Shown here one piece after another: positions 22,621 to 31,011 of a DNA stretch of 64,000 nucleotides. How positions within the stretch are numbered: the stretch's first letter is position 1; each line of letters starts with the position of its first letter. This DNA is from Pyrofollis japonicus (GTDB lineage: Archaea > Thermoproteota > Thermoprotei_A > Sulfolobales > Pyrodictiaceae). Made by a program: the position numbers and the translations under genes. The stretch lies in the NCBI RefSeq assembly GCF_033097485.1, contig NZ_AP028634.1, positions 1,045,126 to 1,109,125 on the forward strand, read 5' to 3'. The notes beneath the pieces are model-generated. The model did no database searches. It worked only from the letters and a program-made list of their open reading frames with translations, and was not told where the DNA came from.

Positions 22621-23409
22621 ATGCCTAGACAAAAGACTTGGAAAAGGAAGTACCTCCTCTGGCGCATCACTCTACTAGCCAGCCTTGCGTTAATAGTGGT
22701 AGGCTTGTTTGCACCATCTATTACCATAAGGAAAGAGAGTGTGAGCGCTTGCCTCATACCGTACAACACACTTCACATTGCTATTCAAGAGATAAACTCG
22801 TCGCTCAAAGTAAAGGACATAGTGGTAATATACAGCAAGTGTACAACCACGGAATGCTCTTCTACATCATCAACAATAAGCATTAGCATAAATGATCTAC
22901 GGGAAGGCGCAAAAACGATTGTCCTCGGGCCGAGCATGTTCAACAATATAGTAGCAGAGCTAGAGACAGGCGAAACACTACCAGCATCCAACGTGAAAAG
23001 CACTGGCATGCATGGATCATCCCTCCTCTTCACCTGGAACTATCCATCGCTCAAAATGCTACTATATGTAGGCATGTATGCGAAGAAGGCCTATATTAGC
23101 ACGGATTATCCGCTATTTGGTTACGAGTCGCCAAGACAGTGCATGGCCAAGCATGTTAGTGAAGAAAGAGGTACGACCATAGGAGTCCTCGTATGTAGTA
23201 AGAATTTGTACGAAATACAGCTCGACTTTACTAGGAGACAATACCTTGGCCTCCTCGTGCAAAAGGCTGAGGTGGAGAGCTATGCTTGTCCCACAACGCT
23301 GCAGCTCCGAACATATATCGATACAGCGTTAATCCTGGAGGCGGCTGCGTCTTCGTTGCTCGCATCGTTAATCCTAACATACTTCAAAAATAGAAAGAAA
23401 ACAATATGA
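22621..23409 (+). CDS. Two-pass membrane protein with large extracytoplasmic domain
   Basis: 262 residues. TM1 at about 17-35 (TLLASLALIVVGLFAPS), a Cys-containing outside domain at 36-225 with six cysteines that could form disulfides (C44, then CTTTEC), and TM2 at about 235-255. Positive charges sit at both cytoplasmic ends (RQKTWKRK, KNRKK). Same topology as the divergent gene 21942-22457, so they may be partners. Not recognised. Confidence 0.75.
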   Translation: MPRQKTWKRKYLLWRITLLASLALIVVGLFAPSITIRKESVSACLIPYNTLHIAIQEINSSLKVKDIVVIYSKCTTTECSSTSSTISISINDLREGAKTIVLGPSMFNNIVAELETGETLPASNVKSTGMHGSSLLFTWNYPSLKMLLYVGMYAKKAYISTDYPLFGYESPRQCMAKHVSEERGTTIGVLVCSKNLYEIQLDFTRRQYLGLLVQKAEVESYACPTTLQLRTYIDTALILEAAASSLLASLILTYFKNRKKTI

Positions 23410-23646: not shown

Positions 23647-26600
23647 TTGAAGAAGTATTTAGCTCCAATCCTTGTAATAGCGCTCCTCGTAATTCCCTTC
23701 GCATCCTTCGTACAGCCAGCAGCGGCTCAGGCGGAGAAGGGCCCTGCAGCTGACCACGTTATTTGGAAGGCTGTCCCGTTGCAGAATGCTGTTCAAGCGT
23801 TGACGAGCGGCGACATCGATGTCTACTTGTTCGGTCTGCGGCCCTCTGCTGCCCAGCAGCTCGTAGGCAAGCCTGGCATTGCCCTCTACCAAGCCCCCGC
23901 AGGCCTTGTTGATATCGGGCTGAACCCGGCGCCGGTCATGATTGTGCAGCTCCCAGGCAAGGTTAGCAAGGCTGCCGCGGCCCAGGCCCTCGGCGTAGAC
24001 CCCGTGGTAATCTCGGCGGTAACCTACATACCGGCTGACGCTAACCTAAGCATACTGAACTCGATGCCTTTCATTGGTGTACCTATAAACAAGACCGACG
24101 TAACTATCGTTGAGCTTTGTGCTAAGCCGGCAAGCCTCCCCGGTAACGTAGAAGTACTCTGGCAGAGCGACAAGTATGACATCAACCCATTCTGCTTCCG
24201 AGACATAAGGTTCGCGCTCAACTATGCCATCGATAGAGACTACATCGTTAAGAACATCTACAAGGGCCTAGCAATAGCGAAGTACACGTTCTATGGTCCA
24301 GACGACCCAGTATACACCGAGCTAATAGATATAGTAGCGAAGTACAAGTTCAGCTACAATCCCGACCTCGCAAAGAGCATAGTATCAAAGGTACTCGCAA
24401 AAGCTGGTGCTGAGCAAAGAGGTGAGGTCTGGTACTACAACGGTAAACCAATACAAGTGATTGGTATTATTCGTGTTGAGGACGAGAGGCACGAAATAGG
24501 CCTAATGTTCGCCAACGCCCTCGAGCAGATGGGTATACAAGTGATAAAACAAGAGGTAACCTTTACGGAAGCCATACCCAAGGTGTACTACACCGATCCA
24601 CGCGACTTTGAGTGGCACTTCTACACTGAGGGCTGGGGCAAGGGTGCCATCGATAAGTGGGACCCATGGAACCTAGCACAGTTCGCTGCAGCATGGCTAG
24701 GCTGGTCACCAGGATGGTTCGAGCCAAGCTACTGGAACTACAGGAACTACACTATCGACTACTACAGCATGCTAACAGCACAGACACAGATAAATGCAGA
24801 TCAGCTCAAGGAGAGCAATTATGTTGACTATCTAGTGTGGATACAAAAGGGATTCATAAAGCCTGGTGAAACAATTTACATAGAAAGCAAAGACCACTGG
24901 ATTTCTTATCTACGTAGGGGCACTGAGCTAGGCCTCTTAGAGAGTATCAGAATCTGGATAGTTGCCACAATGGATACCTATGCTGCAAGGAGTGACGTCA
25001 AGGGCGTTACATTAGACCTTGGCGCTGGTTTAAGGAATCCATTCTTCTATCGTGGTATGTATAAGGAAGGTAGCGACACGATAAGGGTCGGTCATCTACA
25101 CGTTTTCACGGCTGGTACGATCTGGGATCCGGTTGGCGGTTTCAGCGATGTCTACAGCGTTGATCCAATGAGGGCGACCTACGATCCATGGATTTGGAGA
25201 CACCCGTTCAACGGCGAGCCAATACCGTTCCGTGTAACATTCAGCGTTGAGACGGCAGGCCCAACTGGTAAATTACAGGTGCCAGACGACGCAGTATGGT
25301 GGGACGCGAAGCATCACAAGTGGGTGCTCGCTAAGGAGCTAGGCAGGACAGAGGCAACAAGCAAGGTGGTATTCGACCTAAGCAACCTCATAGGAACACA
25401 CTGGCACGATGGCGAGACAATAACCTGTGCAGACATAGTAGGTTACTATGCCGAGCTACTAGACCTAGCATACAACCCGACAAAGAGCCAGATAGAGGGA
25501 AGCGTGGCCTCCCAGCTACAGCAGAGCTTCAACACATTCGTAGCATTCAGGTTCCTGCCAGGACAGAAGAAGATAGAGGTCTACCTCAACTACTGGCACT
25601 TCGACCCCAACTACATAGCTGACTACGCAGTAATAGCTCCATCAATACCAGTACCGCTACTCCTAGCAGAAGACTACCTAGCATTCGTGAAGAAGACCTA
25701 CGCGCTAAGCGACACCCGCAGCGAAAAGGAGAACATACCGCACATCAACCTAGTACTCAAGAACCACGCCGAGGACATAGCTAAGGCCCTCGATGAGATG
25801 AAGTTCGACGACTACAAGAGCTGGTTCACACTACCACACGGCAAGACCGTCATGACGCCGCAAGAGTGGAGTGACAGAGTATCAAAGATAAAGAACTACA
25901 TAAAGGAGTACGGTGTTGCATGGATAAGCCAGGGTCCGTTCAAGCTAGTACGCTTCGACAAGGACGCCCAGGAGCTAGAATTAGAAGCCTTCCGTGATCC
26001 AGCATACCCGTTTGGCCCCAAGAAATGGGTATATGGCTTACCAGTTCCGACCGAAATAACTTCAGTAGTAGTACCTACTGTGGTTACGGGACAAGACGCC
26101 CAGATAACGATTGTTGTAAAAGGTCTCGAACCGATACACGTAATATACATCATACGTGATCCAGCAACAGGAGAAATTGTGTTAAAGGGCATGGCCCAAA
26201 AGACTGCAACTGGTTACATAGTAAAGTTGCCAGGTAAAATAACAATAAAGTTGAAGCCGAACTATGTATATGAACTCGAAATTGTGGCTTACAGCGAGCA
26301 AGTTGCATTGCCTGCTGGAAAGACGGCATTACTACAAACATTGTCGCCTGGATTAAGTCAACAATTATCGCAGACACAGAAACAGATACAGCAGCTCCAA
26401 AAGCAGCTTGGCCAGCAAGCTGAGGAGATACAGCAGCTAGGTCAGCAGGTGCAGCAGCTAGCACAGCAGCTCGGCCAGCTACAGCAGCAGCTTGGCCAGC
26501 AGGTAGCCCAGGTGTTGCAGCAGTCACTAACACAGCTGGCAAATACGATAAGCAAGTTAAGTACATCTACAGCGCAGGGCTTCGACACGGTCAATAAGCA

Positions 26601-26835
26601 GATAAAGACTCTCAGCGACACCCTTGCCAGCGTATCAAAGAGCGTAAGCGACCTCGACAAGAAGGTAAGCAACCTACAGAACAGCCTGAACACGTTAGCA
26701 ACAAAGGACGACGTGAATAGCGTGGCGAGCAAGGCATCCTCAGCGGCAAGCAAGGCCAACGCAGCGCTATGGGTATCAGTGATCAACCTAATATTGCTAC
26801 TAGTAGTAATAGCGCTGCTATTCCGCAAAGCCTGA
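23647..26835 (+). CDS. Membrane-anchored ABC substrate-binding protein, SBP family 5, permuted
   Basis: Captures peptides or other solutes for the permeases downstream. 1062 residues, about twice the usual 500-600. Signal peptide 1-28 ending VQPAAAQA. SBP family 5 blocks occur in circularly permuted order: ALTSGDIDVYL (about 51-61) and DIRFALNYAIDRDYI (about 185-199) come before THWHDGETITCADIV (about 584-598) and SQGPFKLVRF (about 760). A beta domain (795-895) follows, then a Gln-rich coiled coil (about 905-1020) and a C-terminal TM anchor (about 1041-1059). TTG start: GGGGGA is eight bases upstream, while the nearer ATG at 23642 reads only two codons before TGA. Confidence 0.9.
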   Translation: MKKYLAPILVIALLVIPFASFVQPAAAQAEKGPAADHVIWKAVPLQNAVQALTSGDIDVYLFGLRPSAAQQLVGKPGIALYQAPAGLVDIGLNPAPVMIVQLPGKVSKAAAAQALGVDPVVISAVTYIPADANLSILNSMPFIGVPINKTDVTIVELCAKPASLPGNVEVLWQSDKYDINPFCFRDIRFALNYAIDRDYIVKNIYKGLAIAKYTFYGPDDPVYTELIDIVAKYKFSYNPDLAKSIVSKVLAKAGAEQRGEVWYYNGKPIQVIGIIRVEDERHEIGLMFANALEQMGIQVIKQEVTFTEAIPKVYYTDPRDFEWHFYTEGWGKGAIDKWDPWNLAQFAAAWLGWSPGWFEPSYWNYRNYTIDYYSMLTAQTQINADQLKESNYVDYLVWIQKGFIKPGETIYIESKDHWISYLRRGTELGLLESIRIWIVATMDTYAARSDVKGVTLDLGAGLRNPFFYRGMYKEGSDTIRVGHLHVFTAGTIWDPVGGFSDVYSVDPMRATYDPWIWRHPFNGEPIPFRVTFSVETAGPTGKLQVPDDAVWWDAKHHKWVLAKELGRTEATSKVVFDLSNLIGTHWHDGETITCADIVGYYAELLDLAYNPTKSQIEGSVASQLQQSFNTFVAFRFLPGQKKIEVYLNYWHFDPNYIADYAVIAPSIPVPLLLAEDYLAFVKKTYALSDTRSEKENIPHINLVLKNHAEDIAKALDEMKFDDYKSWFTLPHGKTVMTPQEWSDRVSKIKNYIKEYGVAWISQGPFKLVRFDKDAQELELEAFRDPAYPFGPKKWVYGLPVPTEITSVVVPTVVTGQDAQITIVVKGLEPIHVIYIIRDPATGEIVLKGMAQKTATGYIVKLPGKITIKLKPNYVYELEIVAYSEQVALPAGKTALLQTLSPGLSQQLSQTQKQIQQLQKQLGQQAEEIQQLGQQVQQLAQQLGQLQQQLGQQVAQVLQQSLTQLANTISKLSTSTAQGFDTVNKQIKTLSDTLASVSKSVSDLDKKVSNLQNSLNTLATKDDVNSVASKASSAASKANAALWVSVINLILLLVVIALLFRKA

Positions 26836-27168: not shown

Positions 27169-28248
27169 TTGGCGGGCAGGACTGCCTCTGTGCTTGCAAG
27201 GCGTGCCGTGTTCCTCACAATAGCACTTATCTTGATAATGATACTGACTGCTGCGATTATCGGTGCCTCTGGTTACGACGAGAAAGTGATAAGGGCGATT
27301 ATTGGAACCGAGCTCCAGGCTTATAGGCAGTCGCTTCAACGCCAGAATATACCTGCGACGGAGATTCAGAAGCTTGTTGAGCAGCGTAAGCAAGAACTAA
27401 TAGAAATATATGGGCTCAATAAGCCGTGGACTGCGCGTGTCCTTCCTATGGCGTTCCGTGCTCTGAAGCTTGATCTGGGCTATGTAAAGAGCCGCGCGGT
27501 TGCCGATGTCGTGGGGAAGCAGTTGCCTCTTAGCGTTAAGGATGCTATCCTAACGGTTCTCCCAAGAACGATAGTGATGTTGACTGTCGCCGAGCTCATA
27601 TGTGCTGCTATAGCTCTCCGGCTTGCTCCATTGATAGCCTATAAGCGTGGAAGCCTTCTCGATAAATCGGTCATAGCGTATGCGGCGTTTACTAATGCCC
27701 TACCTATATGGTGGCTAGGCCTTATAGCAATATTCTTGTTTGGCTACGAGTTACGCATCGCTCCGACAGATTATAGGATAGTGATTAAGTATATTAACGA
27801 GTTTACAAGCAATCCTGGCGACGCCATGATAGGTTTGCTCAAAGTATCATGGCTACCGGTCACGGTGGTCGTGATAGGCCTTCTAGGCGGCTGGCTCTAC
27901 GGTATACGAGCAATAGCTATACGTGTAGTCAACGAGGACTACGTCTATGTTGCAAAAGCTAAGGGCCTTCCAGAGGAAATAGTGGTCAAGCGCTACATTC
28001 TTCGAGTAATTCTGGGACCCGTGCTAACAATAGTGATACTGGCTCTTGCCGGCTCAATAGGTGGCTTCATTATCACGGAGTCAGTCTTCGACTGGCCAGG
28101 CATGGGTTCACTATACTATGCAGCAATAACGAGCGGTGATGCACCAACGCTCATCGGGCTCATATACATAACAACGTTGGTGTATATACTGGCGAGGTTT
28201 ACTCTAGAGGTACTATACATACTCGTAGATCCACGTGTCCGTTACTAA
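27169..28248 (+). CDS. Peptide-type ABC transporter permease, DppB-like
   Basis: 359 residues, BPD-transporter fold. A first TM at about 13-33 is followed by an outside segment, then a cluster of TMs from about 135. The cytoplasmic EAA loop is visible as YVYVAKAKGLPEEIVVKRYILR, with the conserved Ala and Gly. The terminal FDWPGMGSLYYAAI and VYILVDPRVRY are DppB hallmarks. TTG start. First permease of the transporter operon, 101 bases before the second. Confidence 0.9.
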   Translation: MAGRTASVLARRAVFLTIALILIMILTAAIIGASGYDEKVIRAIIGTELQAYRQSLQRQNIPATEIQKLVEQRKQELIEIYGLNKPWTARVLPMAFRALKLDLGYVKSRAVADVVGKQLPLSVKDAILTVLPRTIVMLTVAELICAAIALRLAPLIAYKRGSLLDKSVIAYAAFTNALPIWWLGLIAIFLFGYELRIAPTDYRIVIKYINEFTSNPGDAMIGLLKVSWLPVTVVVIGLLGGWLYGIRAIAIRVVNEDYVYVAKAKGLPEEIVVKRYILRVILGPVLTIVILALAGSIGGFIITESVFDWPGMGSLYYAAITSGDAPTLIGLIYITTLVYILARFTLEVLYILVDPRVRY

Positions 28249-28349: not shown

Positions 28350-29879
28350 TTGAGCACGAAAGCTGCAGAAGTAAGGAAGAGAATGGCTAAGGCACGGTCG
28401 GAGAGATTCCGCGAGGCAAGAGAGATTCTTGACGAGGTCTGGAGGAGCCTAATGGGTAAAACGGGCCTCATACTCATAGTGTTCTTAGTAATTGTGTCAA
28501 TTTACGCGCTGGTTTCGATGCCGCCAAATATAGTCAAGCTTTGGAATGATCCTAAGGCGTGGGAAGATAATCCATCAGTAGTTCCGCCTACCTGGGTCAG
28601 CTACTTCGGGACACCCGTTGCCCCCCACGTCGCAAAGGTGCTGAAGCCTTCACAGCAAGGAGTATATAGCTCGGCAATGATTGAGAACGCTGTTCCTGTT
28701 GCTGGTTTTGTGCAGGTCTTCTCGCTAGACTACAGACTTGACGCCAAGGCGTTCCCACAAGACATTATTGCTAAGATTGTTGATGCCTCTGCGAACCCTG
28801 TTGGCGGTGTACAACCCATTGTAACGGTGTACATGATTGTAAAGAGGCCCGACGGGCTCGTCGTCATGGTTAATTCGCCTGCGCCGCAGCCCCTCAAGGA
28901 CATTATTGCGGCTGGCGTCATAAGGCTTGACCCTGCGCAGACAGCTGCCTCTCTTGCAGCAGCTTTTAACATAAGCCTTACGGAGGCCCAGGCGCAGCCC
29001 ATACGGCTATTGTTCGGCAAGCTGGTCGGCAACCGTGTTGAACCGTTGCTCGGCACGTACAAGATAGACTTGATACTAATGTATGGCGGTGTTGACCCAC
29101 ACTCCATGGAGCAAGCTGTGAAGCAGGGCACCTCCGGCATACAGAGTGTCAAGATGATAGTAAAGGGCTCGGCCTACGGACTAATGGGCACCGACTACGT
29201 TGGCCACGACCTCTGGCTCGGCCTGCTCTTCGGATTCCCAGCCGCGTTGGCCGTTGGCTTCTTCGGCGCAGTAACAGCGGCACTCATAGGCATGATTATG
29301 GGAGTTATAAGCGGCTACTATGGCGGATGGGTTGACGAACTCATTCAGCGTACAGTAGACGTCCTCGGAAACATACCGCTTCTCCCAATACTGGTGCTGA
29401 TAGGCGTTATTGTACAGGAATGGAACATTAGTCCCTGGGCGCGCTTGTTCATAATTATCGGCGTACTCGTTCTCGTATCCTGGGGCGGCTTAACGATAAT
29501 CGTCAGATCAATGGTTCTCAGCATTAAGTCAGAACCATATATTGAGGCCGCGAAGGCGGTTGGCGCGAGCAATACGAGGATAATGTTTCGCCACATAGTG
29601 CCGCAGATATTGCCCTACGTGTTCGCTAACCTAGTGTTCTCGGTCCCAGCGGCAATACTGACCGAGGCCGGTCTAAGCATCCTAGGCATAAGGCACGGCC
29701 TGCCAACATGGGGCGCCATATTGAGCGATGCGGAGGCCTATGTTAGGAGCGGTGGCAGCTACGCGGTGTGGTGGTGGATACTGCCGCCTGGCATACTCAT
29801 AGGTATAACCTCTGTAGCATTCGTGTTCCTAGGACTCGCGCTCGAAACAGTAGTTGAGCCAAGGCTCCGCAGGAGGTGA
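28350..29879 (+). CDS. Peptide-type ABC transporter permease, DppC-like, with extra outside domain
   Basis: 509 residues against the usual about 300. TM1 is at 32-52. Residues about 53-280 form an inserted, probably extracytoplasmic domain. The standard DppC core then begins at GLMGTDYVGHDLWLGLLFG and includes the EAA loop YIEAAKAVGASNTRIMFRHI. The last TM ends LALETVVEPRLRRR. TTG start after GGGGGATAGGG. The inserted domain may contact the equally enlarged binding protein. Confidence 0.9.
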   Translation: MSTKAAEVRKRMAKARSERFREAREILDEVWRSLMGKTGLILIVFLVIVSIYALVSMPPNIVKLWNDPKAWEDNPSVVPPTWVSYFGTPVAPHVAKVLKPSQQGVYSSAMIENAVPVAGFVQVFSLDYRLDAKAFPQDIIAKIVDASANPVGGVQPIVTVYMIVKRPDGLVVMVNSPAPQPLKDIIAAGVIRLDPAQTAASLAAAFNISLTEAQAQPIRLLFGKLVGNRVEPLLGTYKIDLILMYGGVDPHSMEQAVKQGTSGIQSVKMIVKGSAYGLMGTDYVGHDLWLGLLFGFPAALAVGFFGAVTAALIGMIMGVISGYYGGWVDELIQRTVDVLGNIPLLPILVLIGVIVQEWNISPWARLFIIIGVLVLVSWGGLTIIVRSMVLSIKSEPYIEAAKAVGASNTRIMFRHIVPQILPYVFANLVFSVPAAILTEAGLSILGIRHGLPTWGAILSDAEAYVRSGGSYAVWWWILPPGILIGITSVAFVFLGLALETVVEPRLRRR

Positions 29880-29886
29880 GGTGTAT

Positions 29887-31011
29887 ATGAGTAAGACAGT
29901 TATGAGTCAAAATGGCGTAATTAAGGCGGAGGAGCTAAGAGTATGGTTCCCTGTAAGGCGAAGCATTGTTGACGCCCTCCGTGGAAGACCCCAGCTCTTC
30001 GTCCATGCAGTCGACGGTGTCACGTTCGAGATACATGAGGCGGAAATATTCTGCCTTGTAGGAGAAAGCGGTTGCGGCAAAACTACGACGGGTAGGGCAC
30101 TCCTACGCCTCATAGACAAGAGCAATGTTCGTGGTGGCCACGTCTACTTCCGCCCCAGCAAGGAGGTCTACGAGGAGGTTGCGCGACTAGCTCCTCAAGC
30201 AGTGGTTGAGGAGGGCGTCATAGACCTCTACCGGGTACCGGATAAGGCTATGAAGCCTCTGCGCAGGGAGCTACAAATAGTGTTCCAGGACCCCTTCGGC
30301 AGCCTCAACCCGCGCATGAAGATAGGCGATATACTCGAAGAGCCGCTCATAATTCACGGCATAGGTTCTACCCCGGAGGAGCGTGCAGAGATCATAGCGA
30401 GAGCCCTTGAAATCGTCAAGCTTACACCGCCCGAGGAGTTCGTTGATAGGTATCCGCACCAGCTCAGCGGTGGGCAGAGACAGAGAGTAGTGATAGCGAG
30501 AGCACTGCTCCTCAACCCAAGATTCCTCGTTGCCGACGAGCCTGTATCAATGCTCGACGTATCTATACGTGCAGAGATCCTCGAGATACTGTTCGAGCTG
30601 AAGGAGAAGCACGGCCTAGCGCAGCTGTTCATTACACACGACCTAGCGCTCGCGAGGCACGTGTGCGACCGATTAGCAGTAATGTACCTTGGCAGGATAG
30701 TCGAGATGGGACCAACCGACGTAGTCATATCGAAGCCACTGCACCCCTACACTAGGGCGCTCATGGCAGCAGTACCTGAGCCCGACCCGCGCAACAGGCT
30801 CCGCGTAAGAAACGTCCCGATAAAGGGCGAGGTAACAAGCGCGGTTCACTTGCCGAGAGGATGCAGGTTTAGGCCGAGATGCGTAGCATACGACCAGACG
30901 CCAGCAGTGAGACCGAAATGCGACTCAGAAGAACCGCCACTCTTCGAGGCGGAGCCAGGGCACCACGTCGCCTGCTGGCTACACGCCCCGAGAGAAAAAC
31001 TCGGGGCATAG
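29887..31011 (+). CDS. Peptide-type ABC transporter ATPase, DppF/OppF-like
   Basis: 374 residues. Walker A GESGCGKTTTGRALL, Q-loop FQDPFGSLNPRMK, signature LSGGQRQR, Walker B FLVADEPVSMLD and switch His in FITHDLAL. The C-terminal oligopeptide-transporter extension has the cysteine cluster CRFRPRC, PKC and CWL, known to bind an Fe-S cluster in some OppD/DppD proteins. ATG at 29887 is preferred, with GGAGGTGAGG before it. This is the only ATPase gene in the operon; family members usually come as DppD plus DppF, so it may work as a homodimer or with a subunit encoded elsewhere. Confidence 0.93.
   Translation: MSKTVMSQNGVIKAEELRVWFPVRRSIVDALRGRPQLFVHAVDGVTFEIHEAEIFCLVGESGCGKTTTGRALLRLIDKSNVRGGHVYFRPSKEVYEEVARLAPQAVVEEGVIDLYRVPDKAMKPLRRELQIVFQDPFGSLNPRMKIGDILEEPLIIHGIGSTPEERAEIIARALEIVKLTPPEEFVDRYPHQLSGGQRQRVVIARALLLNPRFLVADEPVSMLDVSIRAEILEILFELKEKHGLAQLFITHDLALARHVCDRLAVMYLGRIVEMGPTDVVISKPLHPYTRALMAAVPEPDPRNRLRVRNVPIKGEVTSAVHLPRGCRFRPRCVAYDQTPAVRPKCDSEEPPLFEAEPGHHVACWLHAPREKLGA

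Follow-up and report, generated by a model that had tools for sequence, protein, structure and literature searches.

We report a protein of Pyrofollis japonicus that is very probably the tethered solute-binding protein (SBP) of an Opp/Dpp-type importer, in which an intact binding domain has been circularly permuted, and for which a mechanism and a history are proposed below. The gene was located in the window, a stretch of 64,000 nt (GCF_033097485.1, NZ_AP028634.1, forward strand, positions 1,045,126-1,109,125), and coordinates given without a prefix are positions in this window (Table 1). The TTG start codon was supported by the nearest relative, which has an ATG codon at the aligned position. 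With a score of 82.6 bits against the curated Pfam cut-off of 32.4, the window protein met the criterion for membership in family 5, and the criterion that Opp/Dpp-type permeases and an ATPase should be encoded alongside was also met, while no NCBIfam model scored above its cut-off for this protein. The domain family (PF00496, cluster C) and the operon partners are shared with the DppA, OppA, and AppA proteins, from which the window protein differs in that its halves are swapped and that it contains an additional Ig-like domain and a coiled coil.

Table 1. Positions of the permuted binding protein, its segments, the operon genes and other proteins discussed in the text
Feature	Position	Strand	Basis or remark
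Circularly permuted family-5 solute-binding protein, 1062 aa, TTG start; single ORF	23647..26835	+	ORF, Pfam, crossed 7fi3 match
Sec signal peptide, residues 1-28, ...AAAQ, cleavage near 28	23647..23730	+	Sequence; conserved at family N terminus
C-module, residues 30-470 = canonical OppA 317-721	23734..25056	+	Half-domain HMM, 7fi3 profile match, PF00496
ALTSGDIDV block, residues 51-59	23797..23823	+	Sequence
DIRFALNYAIDR block, residues 186-197	24202..24237	+	Sequence
Junction, canonical C terminus fused to canonical N terminus, residues ~463-480	25033..25086	+	Junction profile; 7fi3 chain 721 then 22
N-module, residues 478-812 = canonical OppA 22-314	25078..26082	+	Half-domain HMM, 7fi3 profile match
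HWHDGETITCADIV block, residues 585-598	25399..25440	+	Sequence
SQGPFKL block, residues 761-767; new cut site shortly downstream	25927..25947	+	Sequence, 7fi3 match
Ig-like beta domain, residues ~802-899	26050..26343	+	AlphaFold secondary structure, pLDDT >90
Coiled-coil stalk, residues ~901-1034, first 60 Gln-rich	26347..26748	+	Heptads; low-confidence model helices
C-terminal TM anchor (about 1040-1059), then short basic tail	26764..26823	+	Hydropathy maximum 2.96 over 19 residues
OppB-type permease	27169..28248	+	PF00528, 2.5e-28; order conserved in relatives
OppC-type permease, ~220-residue extracytoplasmic beta domain after TM1 (residues ~57-280)	28350..29879	+	Pfam, AlphaFold
OppF-type ABC ATPase (ABC_tran + oligo_HPY)	29854..31011	+	Pfam
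SlaB-like protein (beta domains, ~213-residue coil, TM), adjoins large beta-rich protein	L158:2139-5978		Own genome
Canonical-order f8 proteins	L036:5179-7866, L037:4464-7160, L038:4755-7442		
P0002, DppA-like permuted binding protein, 761 aa	G000:C1:1988146-1990428 (L055:1147-3432)		N-terminal TM anchor

Order of the modules in the binding domain

An earlier note on this DNA had described 4 sequence blocks typical of SBPs (ALTSGDIDV, DIRFALNYAIDR, HWHDGETITCADIV, and SQGPFKL), each present once and in permuted order, and this order was confirmed as real and far beyond chance. In a single-sequence search of the PDB, residues 161-469 of the query matched residues 384-719 of the OppA protein of Thermococcus kodakarensis (7fi3), and residues 492-777 matched residues 22-298 of the same chain, so that the 2 matches crossed. 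With a family profile built from 62 relatives, profile positions 33-369 corresponded to chain residues 317-721 (independent E 4.7e-50), and positions 390-692 to chain residues 22-314 (independent E 5.6e-31). Taken together, the 2 blocks covered residues 22-721 of the 732 amino acids in the 7fi3 chain once and without overlap, with the cut site falling between chain residues 314 and 317. In canonical proteins encoded by the same genome, the cut corresponds to the loop that follows GPY...NPYYxG, that is, the loop after the GPYxL strand in lobe I.

The N-half and C-half HMMs each gave a single match in the window protein, and positions 210-356 of the PF00496 profile aligned to residues 179-340. 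Canonical N-to-C order, which is typical of PF00496 but not definitional, was not met, as seen from the crossed match. In members from Caldilineaceae, Calidithermus, Pyrobaculum, and Ignicoccus, the PF00496 match started at profile positions 145-151 near the N terminus, which in these alignments would be consistent with the same cut. The window protein and 7fi3 belong to the same sub-family, align over nearly the whole chain and share the motifs RVEDER, YTEGW, WNPxxxGYSDTYS, and VPEDAV, but 7fi3 has the canonical order, and its solved chain lacks a coiled coil.

The AlphaFold model of the full protein had a pLDDT of 88.6 and a pTM of 0.83, with pLDDT values mostly above 90 across both halves. 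When the model was searched with Foldseek, the top match in the PDB was 7fi3, followed by YliB, YntA, NikZ, AppA, and OppA/DppA structures. The criterion for an OppA-like bilobed fold was met on the basis of the pTM value and of PDB matches led by OppA, AppA, NikA, and DppA, without a superposition across the permutation. The Foldseek TM-scores against 7fi3 were 0.27 and 0.39, with an rmsd of 7.8; since Foldseek aligns in sequence order, these scores cannot show a superposition of the whole domain. The alignments and the predicted model support the interpretation of the window protein as a single-domain circular permutant.

A natural circularly permuted ABC binding protein, which its authors linked to membrane anchoring, is Tp0684 (MglB-2) of Treponema pallidum (PMC4990184). 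The window protein is likewise a permuted ABC binding protein with a suggested link to anchoring; Tp0684, however, has a sugar-binding cluster B fold, represents an unrelated sub-family with a different cut, and belongs to a group found in treponemes and Gram-positives. Membership in the permuted cluster B ("cluster Bc") was not met by the window protein, which matches family 5. No description of permuted family-5 proteins was found in the open-access literature, a search that did not cover subscription papers.

Stalk, anchor and cell envelope

Downstream of the permuted modules, the earlier note had placed a beta domain, a coiled coil and a terminal TM anchor, and these were recovered in that order. 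The core periodicity of residues 903-1034 was computed to be near 3.5-3.6, a value that none of 5,000 shuffles reached; when the halves of the coil were analyzed separately, it was reached by 0 and 1 of 5,000 shuffles, respectively. The AlphaFold confidence for the coil was low, about 40-70. The note was right about the coiled coil as such, but its length is ~132 residues rather than about 115, and only its first 60 residues are rich in Gln. At 0.1485 nm per residue, a coil of ~132 residues would be about 20 nm long. It is plausible, though not shown, that the coil lifts the binding domain above the membrane, as the note had inferred, but the domain is less likely to extend through the S-layer.

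Like SlaB of the Sulfolobales (PMC5744192; 8qox), whose stalk is a 20 nm trimeric coiled coil with a C-terminal TM segment, the window protein carries a C-terminal TM anchor preceded by a coil of comparable length, but SlaB lacks a binding domain. Heptads followed by a TM segment meet the description of a SlaB-like build, not of membership in the family, as the SlaB model NF040788 scored only 29.4 bits against a cut-off of 700, and this over the coil and the TM segment alone. Sequence similarity between the coil and the SlaB structure 8qox (E 8e-5) may be compositional, and we did not take the resemblance of the coil to sequences such as SlaB, flagellin, and viral spike proteins as a sign of homology. 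The SlaB-like protein encoded in the same genome has a longer coil than the window protein, and likely forms an S-layer pair with its large beta-rich neighbor. Because the ~20 nm coil of the window protein equals the SlaB stalk in length and is shorter than the coil of 213 residues, the binding domain is more likely to be located in the space under the S-layer than to extend through it, and we infer that the stalk likely spans this space.

Outside the group with the coil, the relatives contained S/T-rich or other linkers. Thermoproteota binding proteins with a C-terminal anchor and an S/T-rich linker (L024-L050) follow the same anchoring logic, whereas the sub-clade of the window protein has a coiled coil instead. 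Ignicoccus has no S-layer, and its permuted proteins (L028, L029, L033) contained neither a linker nor a TM segment; the I. hospitalis genome (G035) is among those analyzed. Among the archaeal members checked, the anchor was truly absent only in Ignicoccus; its apparent absence from L030 and L032 was rejected, as these loci end early (open frames of 892 and 902 aa). Furthermore, a tail of 175 residues, compared with 239-255 residues in near relatives, was identified in a genome that we take to be that of Thermosphaera aggregans; Thermosphaera has no S-layer. Tails of 167-193 residues were also present in relatives with an envelope of undetermined type, and these equally short tails weaken the use of stalk length as a clean S-layer marker. 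The comparative data favor a putative role as spacer or tether, without proving it.

Other readings of the protein were weighed against these data. Tandem duplication is the usual route to permutation, so that remnants of it could exist, and the chain could represent 2 tandem or partial SBP half-domains from different copies in normal order, which the earlier note had named as the result that would refute it. It was not met: we identified one N-half and one C-half, crossed relative to a complete canonical homolog whose residues 22-721 were covered without overlap, and one compact and confident model, which leaves this arrangement with hardly any credibility. It is also improbable that the halves pair across chains joined by the coil in a domain-swapped oligomer, with no chain containing a complete permuted domain. 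Although the heptads make oligomerization of the coil a probable inference and the SlaB stalks are trimers (PMC5744192), the single-chain model was highly confident over both halves, and the members without a coil keep the same permuted order. A separate question is whether the height of the coil matters at all, since it could serve to attach the protein to another envelope protein, such as the S-layer stalks, or to oligomerize it. In the relatives, low-complexity S/T-rich linkers take the place of the coil, which can thus be dispensed with, and a SlaB-like coil protein is available in the genome; on the other hand, the lack of linker and anchor in the S-layer-less Ignicoccus and the short stalk in Thermosphaera fit a spacer or tether, and we consider an attachment or oligomerization device unlikely, without dismissing it.

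Transporter operon and proposed mechanism

The gene order SBP-OppB-OppC-OppF/D was computed to be kept in most of the loci with enough flanking sequence. The OppC-type permeases of this transporter family were mostly 447-645 aa long, as compared to 292 and 263 aa in the 2 canonical systems of the genome. In the AlphaFold model of OppC (pLDDT 93), the extracytoplasmic domain at about residues 57-280 was beta-rich; no such domain is present in the OppC/DppC structures, which match only ~230 columns. It was also noted that this domain is common to the transporters of the family and missing from the canonical OppC proteins of the genome. The operon contained a single Opp-type ATPase gene. A lone second gene of this type was observed at G000:C1:824660-824854, away from other Opp systems, and its product is a candidate for the partner of the OppF protein encoded in the operon. 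The 262-aa protein encoded upstream of the binding protein (22621-23409) contained hydrophobic stretches close to each of its ends, and Pfam gave no confident match.

The ligand is most likely a peptide, an inference by analogy with one homolog, 7fi3, whose structure contains an endogenous pentapeptide. For I. hospitalis, the genome paper (PMC2614490) describes an ABC transporter for oligopeptides and improved growth when peptides are supplied.

The permutation, the coil, the anchor and the conserved operon are established by computation, with the canonical termini fused and the new termini in the lobe I loop after the GPYxL strand. In the mechanism that we propose, the protein would be exported by the Sec pathway and then anchored through its C-terminal helix, the bilobed domain would fold as usual, and peptides would be captured between the membrane and the S-layer. 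The binding protein would dock on the OppB-OppC pore, powered by OppF and the partner ATPase, and the stalk is inferred to hold the domain within reach of both the S-layer and the permease. A reason compatible with the history outlined below would be that a permuted domain is tethered at a different point, which is our hypothesis.

Distribution and history of the permuted order

The history that we propose would consist of one old founding permutation, a later return to canonical order in one lineage, and an independent permutation in a DppA-like family. The earlier note had asked whether the order is shared by other Thermoproteota, which turned out to be the case for most of them, and also for some bacteria. 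According to the half-domain HMMs, the 80 named loci from a scan across GTDB were without exception permuted, as were all homologs from the genome search that contained both halves, except those in the family here called f8, which belongs to the same taxonomic order as P. japonicus. Archaeal permuted loci were identified in Pyrodictiaceae, Acidilobaceae, Desulfurococcaceae, Thermoproteales, Nezhaarchaeota, Bathyarchaeota, Nitrososphaeria, and Caldarchaea, and bacterial ones in Bipolaricaulota, Chloroflexota, and Deinococcota. A profile of the junction, in which the canonical C-end is fused to the canonical N-end, matched 122 of the 200 sampled Thermoproteota genomes, or ~119 after exclusion of 3 partial matches (2 canonical f8 proteins and one fragment), and 12 of 101 Chloroflexota genomes. 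From this wide distribution of the junction we infer that the permutation event is old and that the window gene belongs to a large family. In the tree, the bacterial copies fell inside archaeal groups, which suggests, from this placement only, that they may have been acquired by transfer. Plasmid searches with P0001 and the TkOppA C-half identified no relatives.

The f8 proteins (L036-L038, ~895 aa) were homologous to the permuted family but had the canonical order. In a tree for which both modules were rearranged to canonical order, they branched within the permuted group, sister to L040-042 and L049, with UFB support of 99-100. The tree was rooted on TkOppA as a single outgroup, which is distant and fragmentary, its sequence having been read off a printed search alignment. 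Each module alone placed L036-L038 in the same neighborhood of the tree, and these proteins are therefore not chimaeras of distant parents. In an AU test on 23 rows, the placement of all permuted proteins on one side of a branch cost 57.7 log-likelihood units (p-AU 9e-7). The canonical order in f8 appears to be a reversion within one lineage, as far as the trees can tell. The OppA protein of Aeropyrum pernix (APE1583), which has reportedly been characterized, may be the same as L049, an assumption of ours that is unconfirmed.

The converse possibility is that f8 retains the ancestral order and that there was no reversion. Parallel events at the site are conceivable, as the DppA-like family was permuted independently and ancestrally at the same loop, but an ancestral f8 would require about 5 parallel permutations on the rooted tree, and at least that number of events contrasts with the 2 of one permutation followed by one reversion. 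Furthermore, the Ig-like domain is absent from f8 and its permuted sisters alike, and the retention of ancestral order in f8 is considered doubtful as compared to the reversion. The idea that permutation is required for a C-terminal anchor was also rejected, given that the canonical f8 proteins are C-terminally anchored as well.

The P. japonicus genome encodes 3 other family-5 proteins, one of which, P0002, is also permuted, so that 2 of the 4 family-5 proteins in this genome have a permuted order. In the numbering of DppA (5f1q), the order in P0002 was 468-535, 27-124, 203-448, while its homologs in families f2, f4, f5, f8, and f9 (about 44-66% identical) had the order 241-452, 462-530, 27-124, 204-235. 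These homologs are cut at the loop that is also used in the window family, whereas P0002 itself is cut elsewhere. Scored alone, the C-tail segments of the DppA-like proteins were weak (3.2 and 6.8 bits), but they lie at the positions demanded by the permutation, and the segment is missing at the canonical place. Both permuted types have an N-terminal TM segment and a linker that is mostly S/T-rich. In a tree of the DppA-like family rooted on canonical proteins, the P0002 type was monophyletic (100/99) and nested within the other type, the nesting being moderately supported (83/82 and 83/88), and its order looks to be derived from that of the other permuted type. The DppA-like family was apparently permuted independently of the window family, ancestrally at the same loop, and both of its permuted orders persist at 60-66% identity.

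Natural circular permutations are usually single curiosities, whereas the one in the window protein is apparently ancient and extends to most of the sampled Thermoproteota and several bacterial phyla. We tentatively suggest, while regarding it as somewhat less than an even prospect, that permutation has been recurrent and reversible in the tethered peptide-binding proteins of Thermoproteota, with at least 4 events driven by a shift of the tether to a favored site on lobe I. Solely within this joint reading, the 4 events would be the founding permutation, the reversion, the DppA-like permutation (ancestrally at the same loop), and the DppA-like re-permutation elsewhere, and the tether would meet the favored site through the C terminus in one family but through the N terminus in the other. 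The apparent reversion and the parallel case make it testable whether permutation is selected for moving the tether of a surface protein. Order-sensitive annotation and domain boundaries based on Pfam misread the permuted family-5 proteins. We also observed a permuted binding protein with a C-terminal TM segment (L136:3771-6224) in a genome that resembles those of Nitrosopumilaceae or another ammonia oxidizer, a resemblance that is unconfirmed.
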